A stretch of DNA of 24,515 nucleotides from positions 919 to 25,433 of IMG/VR virus record IMGVR_UViG_3300030382_000387; one strand, 5' to 3'. The DNA is from a virus. Under the pieces are notes generated by a model. That model worked only from the letters and a program-made list of their open reading frames with translations. It did not search any database and had not been told where the DNA came from. Made by a program: the position numbers and the translations under genes. The stretch's first letter is position 1. Each line of letters starts with the position of its first letter. This document shows, one piece after another, positions 2,714 to 24,515 of the stretch.

Positions 2714-4731
2714 GGTTCCACCAGCATTATTGTGCTTGAACCTCTTTCGTCATAGCCTGTAGCTTCCATACCTGTGGCTGATGTGATATCTACGTAGTAG
2801 TTCCTCTCTGTACTATCGTCATCTCTGAACGTAAACTCTACTAACGTACTGCTTTCTATAGCATCTATAAGTTTCTCTCTAAGTTGCTTGGGTGTATTAC
2901 CCTTGTACTGCCTGTTTAAACTGATTCCAACCTGATGAGCATACTTAGCCTCTAGTTTCTTTCTCCATACTAGGGTCATAGATACTACGTCAGGAGTCTT
3001 TTTCTTATCAGCAGTAGTAGAATTAGCACGGGATAAGGTTAGCTTAAACTTTATAGACCTAAATGCTGTGCCTACATTAGACCCAAATGTATATGTTGTT
3101 ATACCATCACTAGTTATAGTGCCCATAGATGTGTAACTTTCTGCATAGTCAGTAGCATACTGTACTTGTATTGTCTCTGTTGAAGAAGAATCCTGTACTT
3201 CAACCTTTAGTTGTAGTGCTAACTTTTCTATCTCACTCTGTCCTGCATTGAACCAAGGAGTCTCATGGTTTCCTGATGTTGCATATTCAAACTCTGTTAC
3301 CATTGAAGGGTTTATAATATCTACAGGTAGTTTCATATAATATACGGCATCATCAAATCCAAACCATAACCTATAGTTCTCGTTCACATCAGAGTACGCA
3401 TTGGAAACGTGCATAGAATCTATTCTTCTACCTGCTGTAGGTGCAAGCCACTTGGCTTCCCACCCTAATTCGTTATATCCGAGTATGGTGCTGTATCCTG
3501 TACCTGAATCTATGACAGGAGAACCGTGTCCACTTGGACCTCCACCTCTCCATTGGTATGGAACGCTGTCAGACGAGGTTATGCTAGGGTTTGTGGTAGC
3601 ATCTACGGCTGCAAGCAACTCGTTATGAGTACCCTCCATTAGCATTATGGTTCCTCTTTTATCTTCAGGTAATCCGTCATCTCTATCCGGTCCAACTACC
3701 GATAGCACCGCATTAGAACCATTGACATACTTATATAAACCAAGTCCACTAGGGAAATAGATACTTTCTCGCCACCTTTCAGTTCCTTTACCACCATGTG
3801 GATGGAAAGGAAACTCCATCTCTGTCTTTACAAACCTAGCGTGCATGGCATCGTGTGCCCATAATCCCTTTTTAGAAGCTGCATATAGTATTGGTTCTCC
3901 ACGTGAGTCACGGGCTACAAATAATCCGGTTACATATCCTGCAGGTAGGGGCAACTGAGCATCAGCTACTTCTGTACCTATGGTTACTGAGTACCATAGC
4001 TGTCCTGTGTGTGATATTCCCCATAATCTATCGTCCCAATCTGCTAGATATTTTGCTCCCTGAGTACTGTCAAAAGCCCATACTGCCGCAGTAGTAGTTG
4101 CAGCAATGTAACTTGGTACTGTTGCATAACTGTATCCACTTGTACCGCTACCATCATAGTGTGCTAGTACTAGGTAGTTAGTTCCAGTCCTATCTGTGAA
4201 GTTAAGAGAGTCTGTTACCTGTGCATCTAATGATTCTAATCCTGTATCTCCAGACCTTTGACCTATATAGTTGTCTTCTGCAGCACCATCCCACCAGTAA
4301 TCTTCTGTATTGTTATATACAAATATCTTGGGAGCATTACCTGCAGAGTCATTCCATACTGCATATATCTGGTCATTGAACTCGTTTATAACAGCTATTC
4401 CTGTACCGCCACCTGCGGTTGCAAGACCATGTGCATGAGTATCTGTCTGTGTTGCTAGGTTTCCTAGTACTAAGTGGTTCTTATATCTAAGCTGAAGGTC
4501 ACTCCACCATGCCCTGCTTGTCTCACCACCGTCCATCCTGTCTATACCTATACCACCTCTCCAATCAGACCACGCTATGATAGACGAGCGTAACTGTGAG
4601 TCTTTACTTGTATCACCTATGACTACCTTGCTTGGATATATAGATGCAAGCACGCTTTGTACGGGACGTTCTACTGGATAGTACGTACCGTTTAAATATA
4701 TTTCATTTCTTGTAGATACCTTGTTAGCCAT
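2710..4731 (-). CDS. Large neck/tail structural protein, probable beta-propeller
   Basis: This 673-aa protein starts at an ATG inside the stop of the preceding 426-aa gene (TAATG) and overlaps the next gene by four bases. It is rich in Trp, Tyr, Gly and Asp. Repeating strand-turn-strand blocks such as WSDWRGGIGIDRM, DQIYAVWNDS, TNYLVLAHYDG, AKYLADWDDRLWGISHTGQLWY and PILYAASKKGLWAHD are typical of beta-propeller blades, spanning roughly residues 45-480. The C-terminal part (about 485-673) has a second beta-rich domain (ETIQVQYATDYAESY) and a basic stretch LSLNRQYKG-like near 605, then a FTFRDDDSTERNYYVD beta unit. I infer a tail or neck protein, perhaps the tail hub or nozzle of a short-tailed virion. 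No catalytic motif is recognised, and a glycan-binding role is possible but not shown. Confidence 0.75.
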   Translation of the reverse strand: MANKVSTRNEIYLNGTYYPVERPVQSVLASIYPSKVVIGDTSKDSQLRSSIIAWSDWRGGIGIDRMDGGETSRAWWSDLQLRYKNHLVLGNLATQTDTHAHGLATAGGGTGIAVINEFNDQIYAVWNDSAGNAPKIFVYNNTEDYWWDGAAEDNYIGQRSGDTGLESLDAQVTDSLNFTDRTGTNYLVLAHYDGSGTSGYSYATVPSYIAATTTAAVWAFDSTQGAKYLADWDDRLWGISHTGQLWYSVTIGTEVADAQLPLPAGYVTGLFVARDSRGEPILYAASKKGLWAHDAMHARFVKTEMEFPFHPHGGKGTERWRESIYFPSGLGLYKYVNGSNAVLSVVGPDRDDGLPEDKRGTIMLMEGTHNELLAAVDATTNPSITSSDSVPYQWRGGGPSGHGSPVIDSGTGYSTILGYNELGWEAKWLAPTAGRRIDSMHVSNAYSDVNENYRLWFGFDDAVYYMKLPVDIINPSMVTEFEYATSGNHETPWFNAGQSEIEKLALQLKVEVQDSSSTETIQVQYATDYAESYTSMGTITSDGITTYTFGSNVGTAFRSIKFKLTLSRANSTTADKKKTPDVVSMTLVWRKKLEAKYAHQVGISLNRQYKGNTPKQLREKLIDAIESSTLVEFTFRDDDSTERNYYVDITSATGMEATGYDERGSSTIMLVEP

Positions 4732-6011
4732 TAACCTACATTCCTTACGTTTCTAAGCATAGGGAAGGCACGTTTACTCTGCTCTGATATACCAAACCAG
4801 AAAGCTGCCTGTTGCCTACGTGCTTCCGGGTCTGTTGAAGGACCACCTGATGAAGACGAAAAAGCTAGGGCAGTAGCCGTAGCTATAACGTACTGGTCAT
4901 CTATCTCAGTAGCAGTAGAGTCAGCACTAAGTATTGCTGGCTTATCTCCACCTACCAGTTTTAATAAATCATAGGATACAAGCCCATTAAAGTAGGAATC
5001 AAACACTATATCGTTAGCTTCTCTATCTATCTTCCATAGATTTCTAGGTACTTTTTTCCAATGAGCAGAGTCATTTACTACTACTCTAATGTCATCTAAC
5101 CATATAGTACATACTCCGATATCTGCATCATATTCTAATCCTACTGAAATAATAGCTGTATTTGACTCTGGATTAGATAGTGCAACACGTACAAACTTCC
5201 ATGTATCTGCTGTTAATGCAGGAACATCTGCACTTTCTAGTGGAGATGCACAGTTTGCCGTATTATCTAGGTGTATCTTTATATTACCTGCTGATGTAGC
5301 TACGGTAGATTTAATCCAGAACTCTATATAGTCATATTTACTGATATCTTTGCTTGTTATAGAGTCTGTTGCAAGCTCTCCACCTGTTGCTCCTGCTGCT
5401 ACTACTATCTCATTACTTGCAGTTCCCTGCTTTTTGATTTGTGTGTCAGCAGTAACGGTAAAGTCACTATCAATAGCTTCATCAAACACGGCATTACAGT
5501 TAGTTATGGTAGTAGAATCTACCTCATCCCGATAATAGATGTCCTGAATCATAGAAAATCCTGAAGGTATATCAAACCGTAACTGATTACCGTCAGTATG
5601 TAAATCAACATTCTCTACAGAGTCATATACATGTCCTGTAGCATAGATTATAGACTGGTTAATAAAATCATGTATTCTAGTTGGGTCATAATCCATATCC
5701 CATAACTCGTATGTGTCACTTGATGCAGTAGATGTACCTACACTAACACCTGCATCTGCTACAAATGTAAGCGTAGTAGTAGATGCTACGTAGTCTGTTA
5801 CTCTTGCTATATCACCGTCATTACTACCGGAAGTAAATACTATCCACTTACCTATGTGGTCATCATTACCACCTATAACGGTAGTAAGAGATGAGTCTAC
5901 AAGTGTAGTAGTACTACCACTACCCGTAGCAGTACCTATCCGCATAACTCCAAGGTTATAGCCGATACTCTGACGTAATTGCTTTCGTGTCCGTCCCTGA
6001 ATTGTAGGCAT
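4731..6011 (-). CDS. Neck/tail adaptor-like protein with an embedded CBM-like beta-sandwich
   Basis: The ATG at 6011 has GGAG eight bases upstream. The 426-aa product begins with TRKQLRQSIGYNLG, a helix seen at the start of several phage head-tail adaptor proteins, followed by a beta insertion with Thr/Ser/Gly-rich strands (residues ~25-105). YDPTRIHDFINQSIIYATGHVYD (about 110-132) resembles the helical core of such adaptors. Residues ~170-315 read as a jelly-roll like a carbohydrate-binding module: KQGTASNEIVV, YDYIEFWIKST, GNIKIHLDNT, TWKFVRVALSNP and CTIWLDDIRVV in the canonical order. The C-terminus (FWFGISEQSKRAF) is helical. I infer a neck protein with a surface glycan-binding or stabilising insertion. 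Position after the head genes supports this. The adaptor call is tentative and the jelly-roll call is firmer. Confidence 0.7.
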   Translation of the reverse strand: MPTIQGRTRKQLRQSIGYNLGVMRIGTATGSGSTTTLVDSSLTTVIGGNDDHIGKWIVFTSGSNDGDIARVTDYVASTTTLTFVADAGVSVGTSTASSDTYELWDMDYDPTRIHDFINQSIIYATGHVYDSVENVDLHTDGNQLRFDIPSGFSMIQDIYYRDEVDSTTITNCNAVFDEAIDSDFTVTADTQIKKQGTASNEIVVAAGATGGELATDSITSKDISKYDYIEFWIKSTVATSAGNIKIHLDNTANCASPLESADVPALTADTWKFVRVALSNPESNTAIISVGLEYDADIGVCTIWLDDIRVVVNDSAHWKKVPRNLWKIDREANDIVFDSYFNGLVSYDLLKLVGGDKPAILSADSTATEIDDQYVIATATALAFSSSSGGPSTDPEARRQQAAFWFGISEQSKRAFPMLRNVRNVG

Positions 6012-7889: not shown

Positions 7890-8753
7890 CTACGCAGTAG
7901 TTGAAGGAGCAGAAGCATCCATAGTAAGAGAAGCACCACGGCTGTCATCAAGTTCAAACACACCGTAGTCAGAAGTCATTACGATTTCTGTTGCTCTTAG
8001 AGATGCATCTCTCTGCCTTTCTGTCTTAGTTGTTACACTATTGAGTACACATAAAGCACTCTTGTCAGCTATTGCACCAACTACATCATCACTAGAATCA
8101 ATAGTTAAGTTACCATCTTCAAAGATAGCTACTCCGTTAAGAGGTCGCAACCCGCTGAAGAATTCACCTAGTAAGTCCTCGCTCCAACCCTTTGGTACAG
8201 GGTATGTGGATGATGCTGTTACAGCAGTATTAGCTATATCAAACACAGCATTTGGATGCTGGATTATATATACCTGACTACCAAATTTATTTGCTTTAGC
8301 ATAAGCTATTGCTCCTGCTGTATTAGCAAGTGACATGGTAGTATTTGCTGCACCAAGGCTAGTACTGAATCCAGAATACAATGAGTGAACATCTGTATCT
8401 TTCTTCCTAGCCATACCGTCACCCAACTGCCTACCTATGATAGACATGACGTTGACTGCCGATTGCTTGAGAAGTTTATCAGTTATGATAACCTTTGCTC
8501 CTACTTCAGACGCAGTAAGGTCAACAGTTGTCATTCCGATTTCTTCTTCATCTACTATGTCCTGACCATCAACTAGGTCTGACATAGTCATCTGTCCTAC
8601 TTTAGGGACAGTTACCTGCTTCTCGCCTTTTCCAAGGCTAAAACTCTCTATAAGAGCCAAAGCAGGTGCGTTGTGTTCCTCGGTGTACCGAGCAGCACTT
8701 ATAATTATTTTCTGGGCATTTTCCAAATTCCCAGTTGTCGAGGTTTGTGGCAT
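7890..8753 (-). CDS. Major capsid protein, HK97-type fold
   Basis: The ATG at 8753 has AGGAGG seven bases upstream. At 287 aa it has normal length for a compact HK97-fold coat protein without a large delta domain. The N-terminal arm has TGNLENAQKIIISAARYTEEHNAPALALIE (about 7-36), the E-loop region has LGKGEKQVTVPKVGQ (40-54), and EIGMTTVDLTASEVGAKVI (about 71-89) is a strand-rich signature shared with many environmental phage coat proteins. Further on, YIIQHPNAVFDIAN is the P-domain beta strand and helix, and the C-terminal strands include DASLRATEIVMTSDYGVFELDD. It follows the scaffold gene by 25 bases, the usual order. It forms the icosahedral shell. Its ribosome binding site lies in a predicted small hairpin. 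Confidence 0.92.
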   Translation of the reverse strand: MPQTSTTGNLENAQKIIISAARYTEEHNAPALALIESFSLGKGEKQVTVPKVGQMTMSDLVDGQDIVDEEEIGMTTVDLTASEVGAKVIITDKLLKQSAVNVMSIIGRQLGDGMARKKDTDVHSLYSGFSTSLGAANTTMSLANTAGAIAYAKANKFGSQVYIIQHPNAVFDIANTAVTASSTYPVPKGWSEDLLGEFFSGLRPLNGVAIFEDGNLTIDSSDDVVGAIADKSALCVLNSVTTKTERQRDASLRATEIVMTSDYGVFELDDSRGASLTMDASAPSTTA

Positions 8754-18821: not shown

Positions 18822-20717
18822 TTATCCTCCCGGTCCTACTAGACCAAGCCGTGCCATACGTTCTTCTTCAGACATAGCACCCGGTCTTGGAGTACCCGGA
18901 GGAACCATCGGTCCCATAGGTGGAGTAGGCATAGGTGGTGGAACACCCATAGCTGCATTAGGCATTACCTCTGGTGGTAATCCCGGTCCACCCTGCGGAG
19001 CCATCATCATCTCCGGTGGTGGTCCCGGAGGCATACCTTCCGGAGGCATACCCGGAGGTCCCATAGGTGGTCCCTGTGGTTGTGGTGGAGGTTGCGGTTG
19101 CATCATCTGCTGCATCTGTTGCTGCTGTTGTTGCATCTGCATTTGTTTATCATTGACTATCTTCATGAGTTCACCGAAATAGAATCTGGCAAGGTCAGGT
19201 CTTCCCCGTTCTTCCAGACTCTTGAGTATAGTCCATAGCTGTGCTTCGGGCAGAGCCCTTTCGGCAGACTGTTCTCTTAACATATCTTCTATCTGGTCTG
19301 TATCCTGCATACCGAGTATCATATCTCTTATAAAGATATCAGGTAATAACGGTGTCTCGCCTTCTCTGGCTATCTGAGCCTGACTGAATCTAGACATATC
19401 GTCCTGCGGTAATTGTGATACTATCTTAACTTCAGGTTCACCACCTTTCTTGACTATCTCAGGAGTAATCTCTGCTGAGAAATACATTCTTTCTCTATCC
19501 TGCCCACTTACCTCTACTGCTTCAAAGCTACCTGAAGCGTATTGATGTGAAAGCATATGGAATATACTTCTATATGCTCTTTCCATAGACTGTATTCTAG
19601 GATGTATCACAGATTCAACACCCTGTTTGAGTGTATTGATAGCATATCCTGATAGCTGAAAGTCTACCTGTCCGTATACAGAGTAGGGTAGAGAGCCTCT
19701 TTGAATCTCTCCACTAACCATACTCATGAACGCTCCGGATTCTTTTGCCATATCCATCATACCGAGAGGTTCTACATCTTCTCCCTGAGCGAGTGCTATC
19801 TCTGTTCCTTCCTTGTATGGGTCTTCTTCAAGGGTCTTTGTACCGTCCCTTGATTTGACTTTAAGTCCCTGCTTTCTACTTCTGGCTGTAAGTTCCAGCA
19901 TGGTAGAGAGCATGAAGTTACTGTCTTCATAATTACTTCTATTTGCTTTAAATATACTTTCGCCAACGTCTGCTATAGACTCTGAGCCTATGACATCTGA
20001 CTGTATGAGTGGAGTAGAACCTACCATACCTATGAATACAGGTACTCCGTCATGACCATGCTTGGTTCTTTTCTTTAGAATCTTGTCATCCATGACCACG
20101 TAGTTATCTTCTCTGTCATAGAAGTCATATACATCTACACCTGAATCTATTCCCTGTACGGTGGTATCTATCTTGATACCGTACTGTTCTTTTATCTCTT
20201 TAGAAGTCTTTTTAATCTTATAACATGCCCATGTCAGACCTGATGAGGACTCTCCCCAATATGTATTAATAGGGTCCCAAGGTGTTATATCTATTGTTGT
20301 CTTTTCTTCCTTGTCTTTAACAAGTAATACTCTACCTGCATACCATCCACGCAGTACTATGTACCATGCTAACTGGTCACGTATCCTAGGAACCATCCTC
20401 ATACATAGAGTATCGTCTGCGGCTCTTAAAGCTCCTATAAGGAACCTTTCTTTATCATTATTTATCTGTCTCTGCTCACGTTCATTACCGTTTGCAGGGA
20501 TTCTTACTATTAGTTCTGAGCTTGTCAAAAAACTTATTATCTTATCTGCAAATACCTGTGGTTCATTACTGGTGTAGGACTGATATCCGTCACCTGCATC
20601 ATAGGGCTCAAGCCTATAGAGCCTATGGTCATCATCCATCCTGTCCCTCATAGGGTAGGTTGCATCGTGGTGGTCATCTACCATGTTTATTATTTCATTT
20701 GGTTTTCTTTTAGCCAT
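18822..20717 (-). CDS. Portal protein
   Basis: I choose the ATG at 20717 (631 aa), which overlaps the terL TAA (TAATG). A GTG nine bases upstream would add three residues. The first ~500 residues show portal features: a helical N-terminus with HHDATYPMRDRMDDDHRLYRLEPYD, a core with FADKIISFLTSSELIVRIP and WYIVLRGWYAGRVLLVKD, the strand-rich ITPWDPINTYWGESSSG, and a long stem helix around VESVIHPRIQSMERAYRSI. The last ~115 residues are unusual: a Gln/Met run (QMQMQQQQQQMQQMM), then Pro/Gly/Met low-complexity sequence with collagen-like GPPMGPPG units. The protein forms the DNA entry ring at one capsid vertex and docks the terminase. Identification rests on fold pattern plus position directly after terL. 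Confidence 0.93.
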   Translation of the reverse strand: MAKRKPNEIINMVDDHHDATYPMRDRMDDDHRLYRLEPYDAGDGYQSYTSNEPQVFADKIISFLTSSELIVRIPANGNEREQRQINNDKERFLIGALRAADDTLCMRMVPRIRDQLAWYIVLRGWYAGRVLLVKDKEEKTTIDITPWDPINTYWGESSSGLTWACYKIKKTSKEIKEQYGIKIDTTVQGIDSGVDVYDFYDREDNYVVMDDKILKKRTKHGHDGVPVFIGMVGSTPLIQSDVIGSESIADVGESIFKANRSNYEDSNFMLSTMLELTARSRKQGLKVKSRDGTKTLEEDPYKEGTEIALAQGEDVEPLGMMDMAKESGAFMSMVSGEIQRGSLPYSVYGQVDFQLSGYAINTLKQGVESVIHPRIQSMERAYRSIFHMLSHQYASGSFEAVEVSGQDRERMYFSAEITPEIVKKGGEPEVKIVSQLPQDDMSRFSQAQIAREGETPLLPDIFIRDMILGMQDTDQIEDMLREQSAERALPEAQLWTILKSLEERGRPDLARFYFGELMKIVNDKQMQMQQQQQQMQQMMQPQPPPQPQGPPMGPPGMPPEGMPPGPPPEMMMAPQGGPGLPPEVMPNAAMGVPPPMPTPPMGPMVPPGTPRPGAMSEEERMARLGLVGPGG

Positions 20718-22063
20718 TACTTCCACCTTTTGACTTTGATTCTGTCCCTGCCCTCAATATAACCGTAGCCATATCTTTCGACAAGTCCATAAACCAAGGC
20801 TTTTATACCGTGATTGTTCTTATCTTCCGGGGTTTCCCCCACAATATTGCCTTCTCTGTCTGTCTTCCATCTGTAAGTTCTAGTCTGTCCATCGAATGGT
20901 GACGGAGCTGCACCGAATTCACTTAAAAGTCCCAGACATCTGTTACTTACCAGCATATTCGGCTGTCTTGACAGAGGGTCTGGCTTTAAAAACGATTTTA
21001 AACGCTCGGTTCCGTCATTTATTTTAACTTTTTCTGAAGAAAGGTACAATCCTGTTTCCTTCATCCATATCTCTGCAGGTGCAGCCATAGCCTGATGCTG
21101 ATAACCAGCAACGTCTATGACTCCTTCGGTGACATCCTTCCACCACGGGCGGGATTTACATATATCTATCATCTCTTCTGTTATAAGCCCACGTTCATAG
21201 ACCTCATCTACTACCAGTACCTTGTCATCTACTATCTGTATGACTTCTATGGCATAGGCTCCGGCATAACCGGGGTCCATCCATATCTGTACAGGTATAT
21301 CTTCTGTATATTCTATATCTGCAACGTGCATATCAGGTCTAAACTCAGGGAACACTAGTCCTTTAGGCGGTGAAGGTATGCCTTCTATCCTTTCCATAAA
21401 GAAACTATCAGATGCTTCTCTTTCTAGTTTTAATATCTCCGGGTCTTCTCTACCACCGGGGTATAAGTGTTCGTTAGTATAGCTTGGAAGTGAGAAACTC
21501 TGCTCTTGGTCTGACGGTACAGACCATGCGGTGTGCATTTGGGGATACCACCCCAGACTGCCCTCGAAAGTTCCTGCTAAAAACAGCCATCCACGTTTGG
21601 GAGCGACCCTACCACGCAGTCTAAAGAAAGTTTCGAGGTCTAACTGACTCGCCTCGCACCCGATAATACCGTTCGGGGCACGCATAGCCAGAGTTCTGGG
21701 GTCTTTAGCTGATTTAGTCTCTATCCTAGTACCGTCTGCGAGTACAATCTTGCCGGGGTCTACCCTTTTAGATGTCTCTTTAAGTACTCCAAGCTTGGCA
21801 AAGTCATCTACTAGGTATTCAAACTCTGCCCGTGTGCGTTCATAGTCTGCGGCAACAAGCCAGTAGAGTCCGGATTCTTCTGTCTCAACAAATCTGGACA
21901 GTAAGTACTTAGATGCAATCATGGACTTACCTGCCTGTTCTCCACCTGCAACAAGTATAAATCTTTTTTTAGATTCAAGTATGGGTTTCTGAGCCTCAGT
22001 AGGCTCAAACCCAACCACCTTGTACATATATTCAGCTACGTTAGTCGCTGTTTGGGTTGCCAT
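20717..22063 (-). CDS. terL: Terminase large subunit (packaging ATPase and nuclease)
   Basis: The 448-aa protein starts at an ATG inside the end of terS (23-base overlap). ATPase domain: Walker A G-G-E-Q-A-G-K-S at 40-47 (Lys46), a strand GLYWLVAADYERTR (65-78), a Walker B-like strand N-G-I-I-G-C-E-A-S (131-139, catalytic Glu137, but with Cys instead of the usual Asp before it), and coupling motif L-A-G-T-F-E (162-167). The RNase H-like nuclease domain has Asp263 in WMDPGYAG and Asp317 in GVIDVAGYQ. The third site, around DKNNHGIKALVYG (414-426), lacks the usual H-D pair, so its acidic residue is uncertain (Asp414 or a nearby residue). It cuts concatemeric DNA and pumps it into the procapsid through the portal. 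Length is compact. Confidence 0.95.
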   Translation of the reverse strand: MATQTATNVAEYMYKVVGFEPTEAQKPILESKKRFILVAGGEQAGKSMIASKYLLSRFVETEESGLYWLVAADYERTRAEFEYLVDDFAKLGVLKETSKRVDPGKIVLADGTRIETKSAKDPRTLAMRAPNGIIGCEASQLDLETFFRLRGRVAPKRGWLFLAGTFEGSLGWYPQMHTAWSVPSDQEQSFSLPSYTNEHLYPGGREDPEILKLEREASDSFFMERIEGIPSPPKGLVFPEFRPDMHVADIEYTEDIPVQIWMDPGYAGAYAIEVIQIVDDKVLVVDEVYERGLITEEMIDICKSRPWWKDVTEGVIDVAGYQHQAMAAPAEIWMKETGLYLSSEKVKINDGTERLKSFLKPDPLSRQPNMLVSNRCLGLLSEFGAAPSPFDGQTRTYRWKTDREGNIVGETPEDKNNHGIKALVYGLVERYGYGYIEGRDRIKVKRWK

Positions 22064-22547
22064 TCTTCAGACTCCCGAATTTTTCAGCTAGAGCCTTTTT
22101 TTCTTCTTCATACTTTAATACAGACTGCTGTGCCATATTGAGTTTCTTCTCTGGTTTCTTATCTGTAACCACGGTAGCCCTAGCCATCTTTCTAAATTCT
22201 GACAATACATCCCGTGCTTCTGCTGAAGTATCGGATATACCCTTGTATTTCTCAGGGGCATTACCGTTAAGAAGGAAAATAAGTAGGGTAGGGTTAGCTT
22301 TATAGTCTCTATTGTCTGCCATTTCTTTGACAAGACCATAGGCTATGTTCTCAAGTTCTTCTACAAATCCCTGTCTTGCCTGTTCAAATCTTTCTGAAAA
22401 CTCAGGGTGAGTTTTAAACCAAGTATGTACAGTACGACGGTTTACTCCTATAGCTTCCGCTGCAGATTTGATAGTCCCTGCAGTAGGATATACCTTTAAA
22501 AAAGCATCCTGCCGTTCTTCTACACTTATTACACTCTTGTTAGACAT
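22041..22547 (-). CDS. terS: Terminase small subunit
   Basis: The 168-aa protein starts at an ATG with GGGGAAG upstream. Residues 24-45 (GTIKSAAEAIGVNRRTVHTWF) form a helix-turn-helix of the type found in phage terminase small subunits, with KTHPEFSERFEQARQGFVEELENIAYG (45-72) as the following oligomerisation helices. The C-terminus is Lys/Glu-rich (EKKLNMAQQSVLKYEEEKKALAEKFG) and likely helical. It recognises the packaging site on phage DNA and loads the large subunit, whose gene begins inside its last 23 bases. It is the first gene of the leftward operon. A transcription-factor role alone is possible from sequence but the terL context makes terS much more likely. Confidence 0.88.
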   Translation of the reverse strand: MSNKSVISVEERQDAFLKVYPTAGTIKSAAEAIGVNRRTVHTWFKTHPEFSERFEQARQGFVEELENIAYGLVKEMADNRDYKANPTLLIFLLNGNAPEKYKGISDTSAEARDVLSEFRKMARATVVTDKKPEKKLNMAQQSVLKYEEEKKALAEKFGSLKNGNPNSD

Positions 22548-22687: not shown

Positions 22688-22696
22688 TGGTATAAT
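22688..22696 (+). promoter_or_regulatory. Extended -10 promoter for rightward operon
   Basis: TGGTATAAT is a perfect TATAAT with the TGn extension. At 17-base spacing the -35 position (22668-22673, CTCCTT) does not match consensus, so this would be an extended -10 promoter or depend on an activator. Transcription would start near 22703, at the 5' edge of the structured leader. Confidence 0.6.
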
Positions 22697-22703
22697 CTTT
22701 TCA

Positions 22704-22801
22704 ACCGGGGAGCTAAACAAAGTGAGCAGTACAGGTTTTGCTCCATTCCTTGCTCACTCTCCCTTAGTTTTACAATATATAAAACGCCAACACTCCCCGG
22801 T
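22704..22801 (+). promoter_or_regulatory. Structured 5' leader RNA (three-way junction)
   Basis: A 9-bp stem ACCGGGGAG/CTCCCCGGT (22704-22712 with 22793-22801) closes a 98-base unit. Inside are CTAA/TTAG (22713-22716 with 22764-22767) stacked below AGTGAGCA/TGCTCACT (22721-22728 with 22751-22758), and GTTTTA/TAAAAC (22767-22772 with 22780-22785). A second TGCTC at 22738-22742 can compete for GAGCA, so two hairpins are mutually exclusive. It begins at the predicted RNA start and ends just before AAGGGA and the ATG at 22816. The form suggests a riboswitch-like or protein-bound leader. It matches no class I know. Confidence 0.5.
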
Positions 22802-22815
22802 CAAAAGGGAATAAT

Positions 22816-22896
22816 ATGAAATCACTTATATGTGTTTATGAAGGACACAAAGACTGTAGGCTAAAGGTCTGTGACTGCAAATGCCATGCAGTTTAA
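22816..22896 (+). CDS. 26-aa Cys/His-rich microprotein
   Basis: This tiny frame has an ATG at 22816 with AAGGGA eight bases upstream and a TAA at 22894-22896, directly after the structured leader. The peptide has Cys6, His11, Cys14, Cys19, Cys21, Cys23 and His24, in the form C-x4-H-x2-C-x4-C-x-C-x-CH. The 'H-x2-C-x4-C-x-C-x-CH' pattern recurs in small predicted zinc-binding proteins of phages and bacteria. It is the first gene of the rightward operon and overlaps the start of the next gene. I infer a small zinc-binding protein, possibly a host-takeover factor. Function is unknown and no homologue search was possible. Confidence 0.65.
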   Translation: MKSLICVYEGHKDCRLKVCDCKCHAV

Positions 22897-23170
22897 CAGG
22901 ATAATAGACTACCAGAAACAACGCAAAGCTAAACTCGGTGAAGAAATCATAATATCCAAGGACTCACGCAACTACGGTAAGTTCTCAAGGATACATGATA
23001 GACACATCGGTAAAGTCATTGGCGGTAAACAACGGGCAAGAAAGAACGGCTTGAGTATAAAATGGCATTATAGAGTCCAATGCACTTGCAATGATACCTC
23101 CGACTGGCTTACAGCAAGCGGGTTTAAAAAGAAAGAAGGAGAAAGTAATGCAAGAAACAACGTACAATGA
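22886..23170 (+). CDS. Basic hypothetical protein, about 94 aa
   Basis: The ATG at 22886 lies inside the end of the 26-aa gene; an in-frame GTG at 22871 would make 99 aa. Neither has a clear ribosome binding site, so coupling to the microprotein is likely. The first ~20 residues are basic (RIIDYQKQRKAKLGEE). The central part (GKFSRIHDRHIGKVIGGKQRARKNGLS) followed by IKWHYRVQCTCND looks like a small beta-barrel with conserved Arg/Lys, similar to KOW/SH3-like nucleic-acid-binding modules, but this is only a shape match. A Cys-x-Cys pair is near the C-terminal end. The last bases overlap the start of the nuclease gene by 23 bases. Function unknown; DNA or RNA binding is a guess from charge. Confidence 0.65.
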   Translation: MQFNRIIDYQKQRKAKLGEEIIISKDSRNYGKFSRIHDRHIGKVIGGKQRARKNGLSIKWHYRVQCTCNDTSDWLTASGFKKKEGESNARNNVQ

Positions 23171-23555
23171 CGATTGGAGATACGACCTAGAGTTCGGTCA
23201 ACTAGCTGAAAAGAAACTGAATGAAATATTCAGCGGACCTAGAAATAGACTAGAAGTAAAAGCAGATAAACAAGCGTTTTCTACAGGCAATATAGCCGTT
23301 GAAATAGAATGTAGAGGTAAGCCAAGCGGTATATCTATATCTCAAACCGAACACTATGTGTTTCTGCTATACCACAATAATCACTACCAGTCGTGTTTGT
23401 CCATACCTACACGGAAACTAAAGACCATAACAGACAACCTGCTAGAATCAGGCAAGGCTAGGATAACAATGGGCGGAGATGATAAAGCAAGTAGAATGAT
23501 TCTAGTCCCACTTAGTGAAGTATTCATCCTTAATAACTATGAAGAATCATGGTGA
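23148..23555 (+). CDS. PD-(D/E)XK-type phage nuclease-like protein
   Basis: I start at the ATG at 23148, which has AAGGAG seven bases upstream; the frame is open farther upstream (ATG at 23091), but that would extend inside the preceding gene without a ribosome site. The 135-aa protein has the order expected of a phage PD-(D/E)XK nuclease: helix with Glu15/Glu21 (LEFGQLAEKKLNEIF), strand RLEVKAD with Glu36/Asp40, strand GNIAVEIECRGKPSGIS (47-63) with Glu52, Glu54 and Lys58, then a Tyr-rich strand YVFLLYHNN. 'TGN...E...GKPSG' is a pattern I know from phage nucleases of this type. The C-terminal half has helix LKTITDNLLESG and an MILVPLSEVFIL strand. Likely role: DNA processing in replication or host DNA breakdown. 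Substrate is unknown. Confidence 0.75.
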   Translation: MQETTYNDDWRYDLEFGQLAEKKLNEIFSGPRNRLEVKADKQAFSTGNIAVEIECRGKPSGISISQTEHYVFLLYHNNHYQSCLSIPTRKLKTITDNLLESGKARITMGGDDKASRMILVPLSEVFILNNYEESW

Positions 23556-23589: not shown

Positions 23590-23803
23590 AAGATGTAACA
23601 TCTTGACAAGATGCATCTTATGTTACATATAATACAGGAGGGGGGGAATGAGGGGTATATCTCTTATGTAACATCTTACATGACTGTGTATTAATTACAG
23701 AATGCTGTAACCCTAGTTACAAGTGATGTAATTAATTAATACCTAACCTCTTCTTTTATCTAATAATTACAAACATCTGTAATTCAGTTACAACCGTTTG
23801 TAA
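23590..23803. promoter_or_regulatory. TGTAA/TTACA operator-like array
   Basis: Twelve half-sites lie in 214 bases: TGTAA at 23594, 23667, 23706, 23727, 23778 and 23799; TTACA at 23623, 23676, 23695, 23717, 23767 and 23788. Four make inward palindromes TTACA-N5/6-TGTAA (23695-23710, 23717-23731, 23767-23782, 23788-23803); one outward pair is at 23667-23680. Centres within pairs are 21-21.5 bp apart and pairs 50.5 bp apart, near whole helical turns. The last site ends seven bases before the ribosome site of the 89-aa gene. This is most like a cooperative repressor/activator operator or replication iterons. Confidence 0.7.
23603..23633 (+). promoter_or_regulatory. Consensus promoter with 19-base spacer
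   Basis: TTGACA (23603-23608) and TATAAT (23628-23633) are both perfect, but the spacer is 19 bases. The spacer and the -35 edge hold a perfect 12-base palindrome, AAGATGCATCTT (23608-23619). A long spacer containing a dyad is typical of promoters twisted into shape by MerR-type activators. TTACA directly precedes the -10. It would transcribe the 89-aa gene with a leader of about 180 bases. Confidence 0.6.
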
Positions 23804-23819
23804 TTAATAAGGAGATACT

Positions 23820-24089
23820 ATGTCAAACTCTGTAATAGACCGAATCATAAAGCTGAATCCAGAAGCACTTACTGCCGATGGATACGATAGAGCAATAATA
23901 GGTATAACCAAAAGAAACGATAACCACGTTGTCCTCTATTCCAGCGAGAAATGTATCAGGCAACTTATGGAAGATAACAACTGGACTGAAGAAGAATCAC
24001 TTGAATGGTTCTCCTATAATACCGAATCAGCTTATATGGGAGAAAATACTCCTGTGTTTCAATGGAACGATTACGACTGTGATGAGTAA
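23820..24089 (+). CDS. 89-aa hypothetical early protein under the operator array
   Basis: The ATG at 23820 has AAGGAG seven bases upstream, directly following the last TTACA/TGTAA palindrome. The product is acidic: LNPEALTADGYDRAIIGITKRN, then VVLYSSEKCIRQLMEDNNWTEEES, then EWFSYNTESAYMGENTPVFQW and an acidic end. The segments 'N-P-E-A-L-x-A-D-G-Y-D-x-A-I-I-G', 'C-I-x-x-L' and 'E-W-F-x-Y-N-T-x-x-A-Y-x-G-x-x-T-P-V-F' recur in small uncharacterised proteins of unrelated tailed phages, so it is probably a real conserved family, but I know no function. The compact acidic form suggests a partner-binding role. Its unusual operator array implies tight timing of expression. Confidence 0.75.
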   Translation: MSNSVIDRIIKLNPEALTADGYDRAIIGITKRNDNHVVLYSSEKCIRQLMEDNNWTEEESLEWFSYNTESAYMGENTPVFQWNDYDCDE

Positions 24090-24120
24090 ACGTCTTTTAT
24101 AAAAAAAATTCTGGCACGGG

Positions 24121-24215
24121 TATCCTACCCTCATTCACCACTACTCTAAGACATACCCCCTCACACTAACCATCTACCACAACAACCACTACCCCCCACC
24201 CATCATCATCATCCT
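24121..24215 (+). terminator. Rut-like C-rich, G-free tract (candidate Rho-dependent terminator)
   Basis: In 95 bases there are about 45 C and only one G (24150). This starts 31 bases after the stop of the 89-aa gene, so RNA here would be unpaired and rich in YC dimers, as Rho loading sites are. A stable GC hairpin follows, a possible pause site. Terminator function is inferred from composition and place. Confidence 0.4.
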
Positions 24216-24264
24216 GCGACGGGGGCTCCTGCGACTGCGTGACCGCAGGAAAGCGACCCCTTCG
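24212..24264 (+). other. GC-rich hairpin with competing 5' arms
   Basis: TCCTGCG occurs at 24212-24218 and 24227-24233; either copy can pair with CGCAGGA at 24244-24250. GGGG at 24221-24225 can also pair with CCCC at 24257-24260 around the second hairpin. The element is GC-rich in an otherwise AT-rich phage and could be a pause hairpin or small structured RNA. Confidence 0.4.
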
Positions 24265-24280
24265 GCATTTTGAAAACCAT

Positions 24281-24383
24281 GGGGAGGTACTAGAGGAGGA
24301 ACCTTAGGAGGAGGAGTAGGAGGGGGAAGGAAAGTCCCCATCCCCTCCCCTCCTGTCCCCTCCTCATCCTCATCAACCCCCCA
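24281..24383. repeat. Polypurine/polypyrimidine inverted tract
   Basis: A G/A-rich stretch (24281-24334) is followed by a C/T-rich stretch (24336-24383). GAGGAGTAGGAGGGG (24311-24325) pairs with CCCCTCCTCATCCTC (24357-24371) at 13 of 15 positions; AGGAGGGG can also pair with an inner CCCCTCCT. Such tracts can form hairpins, triplex DNA or weak G-quadruplexes. The frames across it have proline/glycine low-complexity products and are not credible genes. Confidence 0.45.
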
Positions 24384-24415
24384 CAATACGAAAGAATCAA
24401 CGCACGAACAAATTT

Positions 24416-24510
24416 TATATCTAAGTGTCTGGCGATTCTATATCTAAATTGTATCTGATAGACCCCGTTTAAACATGACCCCCGCCACATAGTAGACAGA
24501 TACCCGCCAC
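24416..24510. repeat. Short direct repeats near right edge
   Basis: TATATCTAA occurs at 24416-24424 and 24439-24447 (23-base step). CCCGCCAC occurs at 24481-24488 and 24503-24510 (22-base step). Steps near two helical turns are typical of binding-site arrays, but each repeat has only two visible copies and the window ends here. Confidence 0.3.
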
Positions 24511-24515
24511 GCTAC

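Follow-up and report, generated by a model that had tools for sequence, protein, structure and literature searches.

A conserved array of palindromic sites at the early promoter of uncultured marine phages: putative targets of a phage DNA-binding protein

Introduction

What is the function of a dense array of short repeated sites (TGTAA and its complement TTACA) lying at the edge of the late gene block of an uncultured virus? We addressed this question in a window of 24,515 bp, comprising bases 919-25433 of a 25,433-bp IMG/VR uncultured virus record; the end of the window is also the end of the record. A first-pass annotation had proposed either the sites of a cooperative regulator or the iterons of a replication origin.

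Results

Genetic context of the array

All recognisable virion and packaging genes of the window are carried by the minus strand. This block is followed by small plus-strand genes, the array and a gene encoding 89 amino acids:

7890-8753, minus strand: capsid gene
20717-22063, minus strand: terminase large subunit (TerL) gene
22041-22547, minus strand: terminase small subunit (TerS) gene
23809-23814, plus strand: ribosome binding site (AAGGAG) of the 89-aa gene
23820-24089, plus strand: 89-aa gene (PHROG 13182)

Eighty terminase-related loci were fetched for comparison, and searches with DNA patterns and with TerS added more. In relatives with longer sequence, the region beyond the array contains rightward genes for AAA_25 ATPases, an exonuclease, RusA, a methylase-like protein and small helix-turn-helix proteins. 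The minus-strand late block, together with the rightward early genes of these relatives, therefore places the array in the control region from which late and early genes diverge. Among the early proteins examined, we saw neither an integrase nor a CI-like repressor. The start of the 89-aa gene adjoins the array also in relatives L018 and L114, while in L104 it adjoins that relative's own array on the opposite strand.

A DNA search of the phage collection gave no match, the best TerL identity found there was approximately 26%, and a search for a host via TerL among genome contigs found none. Since the collection holds no close cultured member, the control region of this family is known only from sequence. 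The contig ends were also considered as physical genome ends; this was rejected, as their distance from a conserved anchor (described below) varies between relatives.

The sites are local and far above chance

Twelve half-sites within 214 bp, as first reported, were indeed present, all of them at positions 23594-23803. There is no overall excess of TGTAA/TTACA in the window (72 versus 73.8 expected), and no equal density was found elsewhere. The best 214-bp segment holds these 12, compared with a mean best of 3.9 (maximum 7) when the whole window was dinucleotide-shuffled 300 times; 20,000 local dinucleotide-preserving shuffles gave a mean of 1.4 half-sites and again a maximum of 7. Palindromes of the form TTACA-N5/6-TGTAA number four locally, against 0.004 expected, and occur nowhere else in the 25,433-bp record; they are listed here with one further set of inverted half-sites:

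23695-23710, no strand: palindrome 1, TTACAGAATGCTGTAA
23717-23731, no strand: palindrome 2, TTACAAGTGATGTAA, centre 21.5 bp from that of palindrome 1
23767-23782, no strand: palindrome 3, TTACAAACATCTGTAA
23788-23803, no strand: palindrome 4, TTACAACCGTTTGTAA, centre 21.0 bp from that of palindrome 3
23666-23681, no strand: inverted half-sites ATGTAA-CATC-TTACAT, one half-site of which is lost in L018

The direct repeat ATGTAACATCTT was likewise found at both 23593 and 23666. The array region is AT-rich (30% GC), which could suggest ordinary chance or low-complexity clustering; this explanation is refuted by the local shuffles, which never exceeded seven half-sites, and by the retention of the feature in relatives (see below), and we give it practically no weight.

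The palindrome centres lie at 23702.5, 23724.0, 23774.5 and 23795.5, i.e. 21.5, 50.5 and 21.0 bp apart, corresponding to 2.05, 4.81 and 2.00 helical turns. Spacing by whole turns, which had been proposed both within and between the pairs, thus holds within them (two turns) and fails between them (4.8 turns).

Palindromes overlap the early promoter

Upstream of the two pairs there is a promoter-like sequence with perfect hexamers, TTGACA at 23603 and TATAAT at 23628. The usual promoter spacer is 17 bp. Because the spacer here is 19 bp, the earlier description of a consensus promoter applies to the hexamers and not to the promoter in the full sense. Five longer palindromes around it, from 23590 to 23666, had escaped the first-pass annotation, and repeated palindromic sites overlap and flank the early promoter:

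23590-23604, no strand: palindrome AAGATGTAACATCTT, 15 bp, touching the -35 hexamer
23599-23613, no strand: palindrome CATCTTGACAAGATG, containing the -35 hexamer
23603-23633, plus strand: promoter-like TTGACA-N19-TATAAT (spacing N16 in relatives L036 and L114)
23608-23619, no strand: palindrome AAGATGCATCTT, within the promoter spacer
23620-23628, no strand: palindrome ATGTTACAT, abutting the -10 hexamer
23640-23646, plus strand: conserved G-run (in L018, L035, L036, L038, L114 and L127) within the initially transcribed region
from 23666, no strand: palindrome ATGTAACATCTTACAT

Relatives keep the sites beside the same genes

The array is not a chance product of one genome. In L018 (97% TerL identity) all four palindromes are kept, although the spacer of the fourth is changed; palindrome 4 of this relative is an exact copy of its palindrome 3. 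Between the two sequences, 59 of the 60 half-site bases are identical, compared with 190 of 214 other bases. In L114 the array again has the 89-aa gene downstream; the promoter reads TTGACA-N16-TATAAT, and the members of a palindrome pair (TTACACAACCTGTAA/TTACAGAACCTGTAA) are 20 bp apart. The loss of sites in close relatives, which would have spoken against a functional array, was thus not observed. Tandem pairs with a centre-to-centre distance of 19-21.5 bp are present in the window (twice), L018 (twice), L035, L127, L036, L114 and L050, recurring at the same place, between leftward late and rightward early genes, in a family of uncultured marine phages. In L050, both halves of a single palindrome have changed together (TAACAG-AAC-CTGTTA).

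An exact scan of all viral contigs for twin palindromes returned 20 stretches, with a shared context only in near-identical records; most of the remaining stretches, judged by eye only, look like repeats within coding sequence.

In the control regions of 12 lineages TGTAA/TTACA ranks first among 5-mers (101 versus 19.7 expected, in 11 of the 12), a count that includes L050 and L095, both picked for such clusters. For this reason the motif test anchored on a downstream element, described next, is the cleaner one.

A conserved anchor and interchangeable motifs

Directly after the array, or after the 89-aa gene, we found a previously unnoted 66-bp element, followed by a noncoding tract:

24095-24160, plus strand: conserved anchor TTTTATAAAAAAAATTCTGGCAcGGGTATC-N25-AAGACATACCCCC, with a distance of 52 (+/-1) bp between its blocks in 13 lineages (counted by hand)
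24161-24515, plus strand: noncoding tract, C-rich and G-poor at its start

The anchor consensus is TTTTATAAAAAAAATTCTGTCAnGGGTATC, approximately 25 variable bases, and then AAGmCAyACCCCC. In L035 the tract after the anchor is C-rich and G-poor over approximately 300 bp (reverse complement 3100-3400), with GC skew down to -0.95. Two observations concern this part of the genomes: the tract of the window contains, at 24293-24373, a long purine/pyrimidine inverted repeat with many chance microRNA matches, and L114 (record G031, 4148-5588) carries eight CTGTnnACAG palindromes in its early region past the anchor.

Within 320 bp on the left side of the anchor, each lineage read has its own enriched short motif, in a test whose lineages were not selected for TGTAA. 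The motif is of the TGTAA type in nine lineages, ATAACAA in L045 and L055, ATTTAC in L064, and CTACGTAG in L133 and L134. The position of the array is conserved across lineages, while its motif alphabet is variable.

A separate candidate RNA upstream

Separately from the array, a candidate structured leader RNA of 98 nt was detected at 22704-22801 (plus strand). It is preceded by an extended -10 promoter, TGGTATAAT (promoter and RNA together span 22688-22801, plus strand), and is closed by an almost invariant stem, ACCGGGGAG...CTCCCCGGT. Its inner stem covaries in eight relatives, with four pairs changed on both sides, and its covariation score was reached by none of 500 shuffles. Rfam contains no family for this RNA; at a permissive threshold nothing scored above the gathering score, and the low-scoring matches look like low-complexity chance. 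A possible Cys-rich peptide of 26 aa (MKSLICVYEGHKDCRLKVCDCKCHAV) is encoded at 22816-22896 (plus strand), and similar peptides occur in L018, L034, L035 and L032.

Discussion

Proposed sites for a phage regulator

The array, whose position relatives retain while its sequence changes, probably represents the place at which a phage protein controls the early genes or starts DNA copying. Within this range, the reading that we favour, with roughly even confidence, is that of putative binding sites for a phage DNA-binding protein controlling the early promoter. Each palindrome of 15-16 bp would take one dimer of a phage-encoded, sequence-specific protein, and dimers on palindromes spaced by two turns would bind cooperatively along the same helix face. 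Dimers on the palindromes over the -35 and -10 hexamers would keep RNA polymerase from the rightward early promoter, i.e. act by repression rather than activation, with the downstream pairs serving as an added roadblock or as cooperative anchoring; the outcome may be early shut-off or autoregulation. The local distribution of the sites and their retention in L018 and L114 support the binding-site idea of the first-pass annotation. Its phasing between pairs was not borne out, and of its two alternatives, regulator and origin, we rate the regulator as the likelier. Against a regulator stand the distance of 4.81 turns between the pairs and the many sites downstream of the promoter. Furthermore, 56% of positions in the outer flanks of the pairs show complementarity, a feature not required of a plain operator; some symmetry at the level of the pair may therefore be real.

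It is well known that operators of the lambda OR/OL type are palindromes spaced approximately two turns apart that surround the early promoter of a divergent control region. The array shares this arrangement, and differs in that its sites are more numerous, shorter and in many cases downstream of the promoter, and that no CI- or Cro-like protein or integrase was seen in the early regions read. In mycobacteriophages, a short repressor site is present in numerous copies (stoperators) dispersed through the genome. Here, too, a short site is repeated many times in one phage genome, but the four full palindromes of the 25.4 kb all lie in one place.

Which protein might recognise the sites? As had been noted, no regulator gene is evident in the window, and the record ends before the early genes. 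L035, a close relative with the longest early region among those compared, encodes 11 early proteins, none with a DNA-binding domain in Pfam. The 89-aa gene was rejected as the regulator: PHROG 13182 is of unknown function, with relatives in large Bacillus phages, and lacks a DNA-binding domain. The upstream gene at 23148-23555 was also set aside (PHROG 13596, function unknown, relatives in Pelagibacter phages), as was the gene that opens the early region of L127 and L035, whose structural model reached a pLDDT of only 60. Candidate DNA-binding proteins were found only in more distant relatives. L084 carries, beside TerS, a KorA-like helix-turn-helix gene (4510-4737; Pfam KORA, E 4e-6). KORA-family genes were found in the L084 group only, where the arrays consist of TTTACATGTAAA palindromes. 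This recalls the KorA/TrfB plasmid repressor, in that a KORA-family protein is encoded beside arrays of 12-bp palindromes, whereas the sites of the window are 15-16 bp long with a 5-6-bp spacer and no KORA gene was found in its record. Operators of the BlaI/MecI type, which contain a TACA/TGTA dyad, may offer a further lead. Another distant relative, L109, encodes an early protein resembling sigma-70 region 4 (2157-2657).

A replication origin as the main rival

The iteron-like layout of the array and the ATPases of the relatives make a replication origin the main rival, which we consider possible, if rather doubtful. The sites would be iterons for a phage initiator, the early promoter would provide transcriptional activation, and the anchor with its C-rich tract might be the site of strand opening or loading. 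Several inverted repeats of 15-16 bp with a period of approximately 20 bp and an AT-rich stretch conform to this anatomy, and in L018 the palindrome forms an exact tandem repeat of 21 bp. Co-diversification of initiator and iterons would fit an anchor that stays invariant next to motifs that change with the lineage, and three lineages encode AAA_25 ATPases in their early regions. The layout also resembles the origin of phage lambda, which has four 19-bp inverted-repeat iterons (PMC7466680). As in the origin recognised by the lambda O protein, several inverted-repeat sites (here four palindromes of 15-16 bp) lie near an early promoter; unlike in lambda, where the iterons are inside the initiator gene, they are intergenic and overlap the promoter. 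Lambda provides a model for both functions, operators as well as origin iterons. The occurrence of sites over the promoter hexamers as well speaks against an origin. In addition, no initiator was identified, the AAA_25 ATPases being present in relatives only, and no AT-rich unwinding element could be singled out beside the pairs. GC skew, which had been suggested as a test, changes at the array, tracking the switch in gene direction, and for this reason does not discriminate an origin.

Possible hairpins in a leader RNA

The first-pass annotation did not consider RNA. We weighed the possibility that the palindrome pairs are hairpin stems in the 5' untranslated part of the early transcript (a terminator, an antiterminator or a translation control), in which the G-run would pair with a pyrimidine-rich stretch on the 3' side of the pair, and we judge it improbable. 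Folding z-scores of -5.1 (L035), -6.7 (L036), -3.15 (L018) and -2.85 (window) would agree with such a structure, but any palindrome lowers the folding energy and the score of L038 is only -1.35. Outer arms that differ between relatives do pair (GGGGTTG/CAACCCC in L035, a 16-bp stem in L036, a 12-bp stem in L114), and better on the plus than on the minus strand; however, the window's own flank test was not significant (p 0.12), the two spacers within a pair show no complementarity (31%), and the double-sided change of L050 falls within a single palindrome. The half-site is identical in every copy and also occurs upstream of the promoter, and RNA pairing needs neither. Half-sites upstream of or inside the promoter cannot be explained by a leader transcribed from it. 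L038 was initially regarded as proof of hairpins over operators, an argument dropped in view of L127 and of a second L038 palindrome with one mismatch.

Phage HK022 has, in its put sequences, a hairpin-forming leader RNA just downstream of an early promoter (PMC9378689). A candidate hairpin-forming leader likewise lies 3' of the early promoter here; put, by contrast, is approximately 70 nt long with two stem-loops and acts as RNA, while pairing support in the window is weak and an RNA role of the array is putative. DNA sites are thus the more likely interpretation.

Conclusions

We tentatively propose, with low confidence, that the array and the 66-bp anchor belong to a single module, which would serve a new marine phage family as control region and replication origin at once; the anchor would stay fixed, while the site alphabet would be swapped between lineages together with a putative phage protein. 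Interchangeable arrays beside a conserved anchor offer a natural series in which DNA-binding proteins can be paired with the sites that they recognise. Together, anchor and arrays mark where this uncultured marine phage group would govern early transcription and possibly replication.
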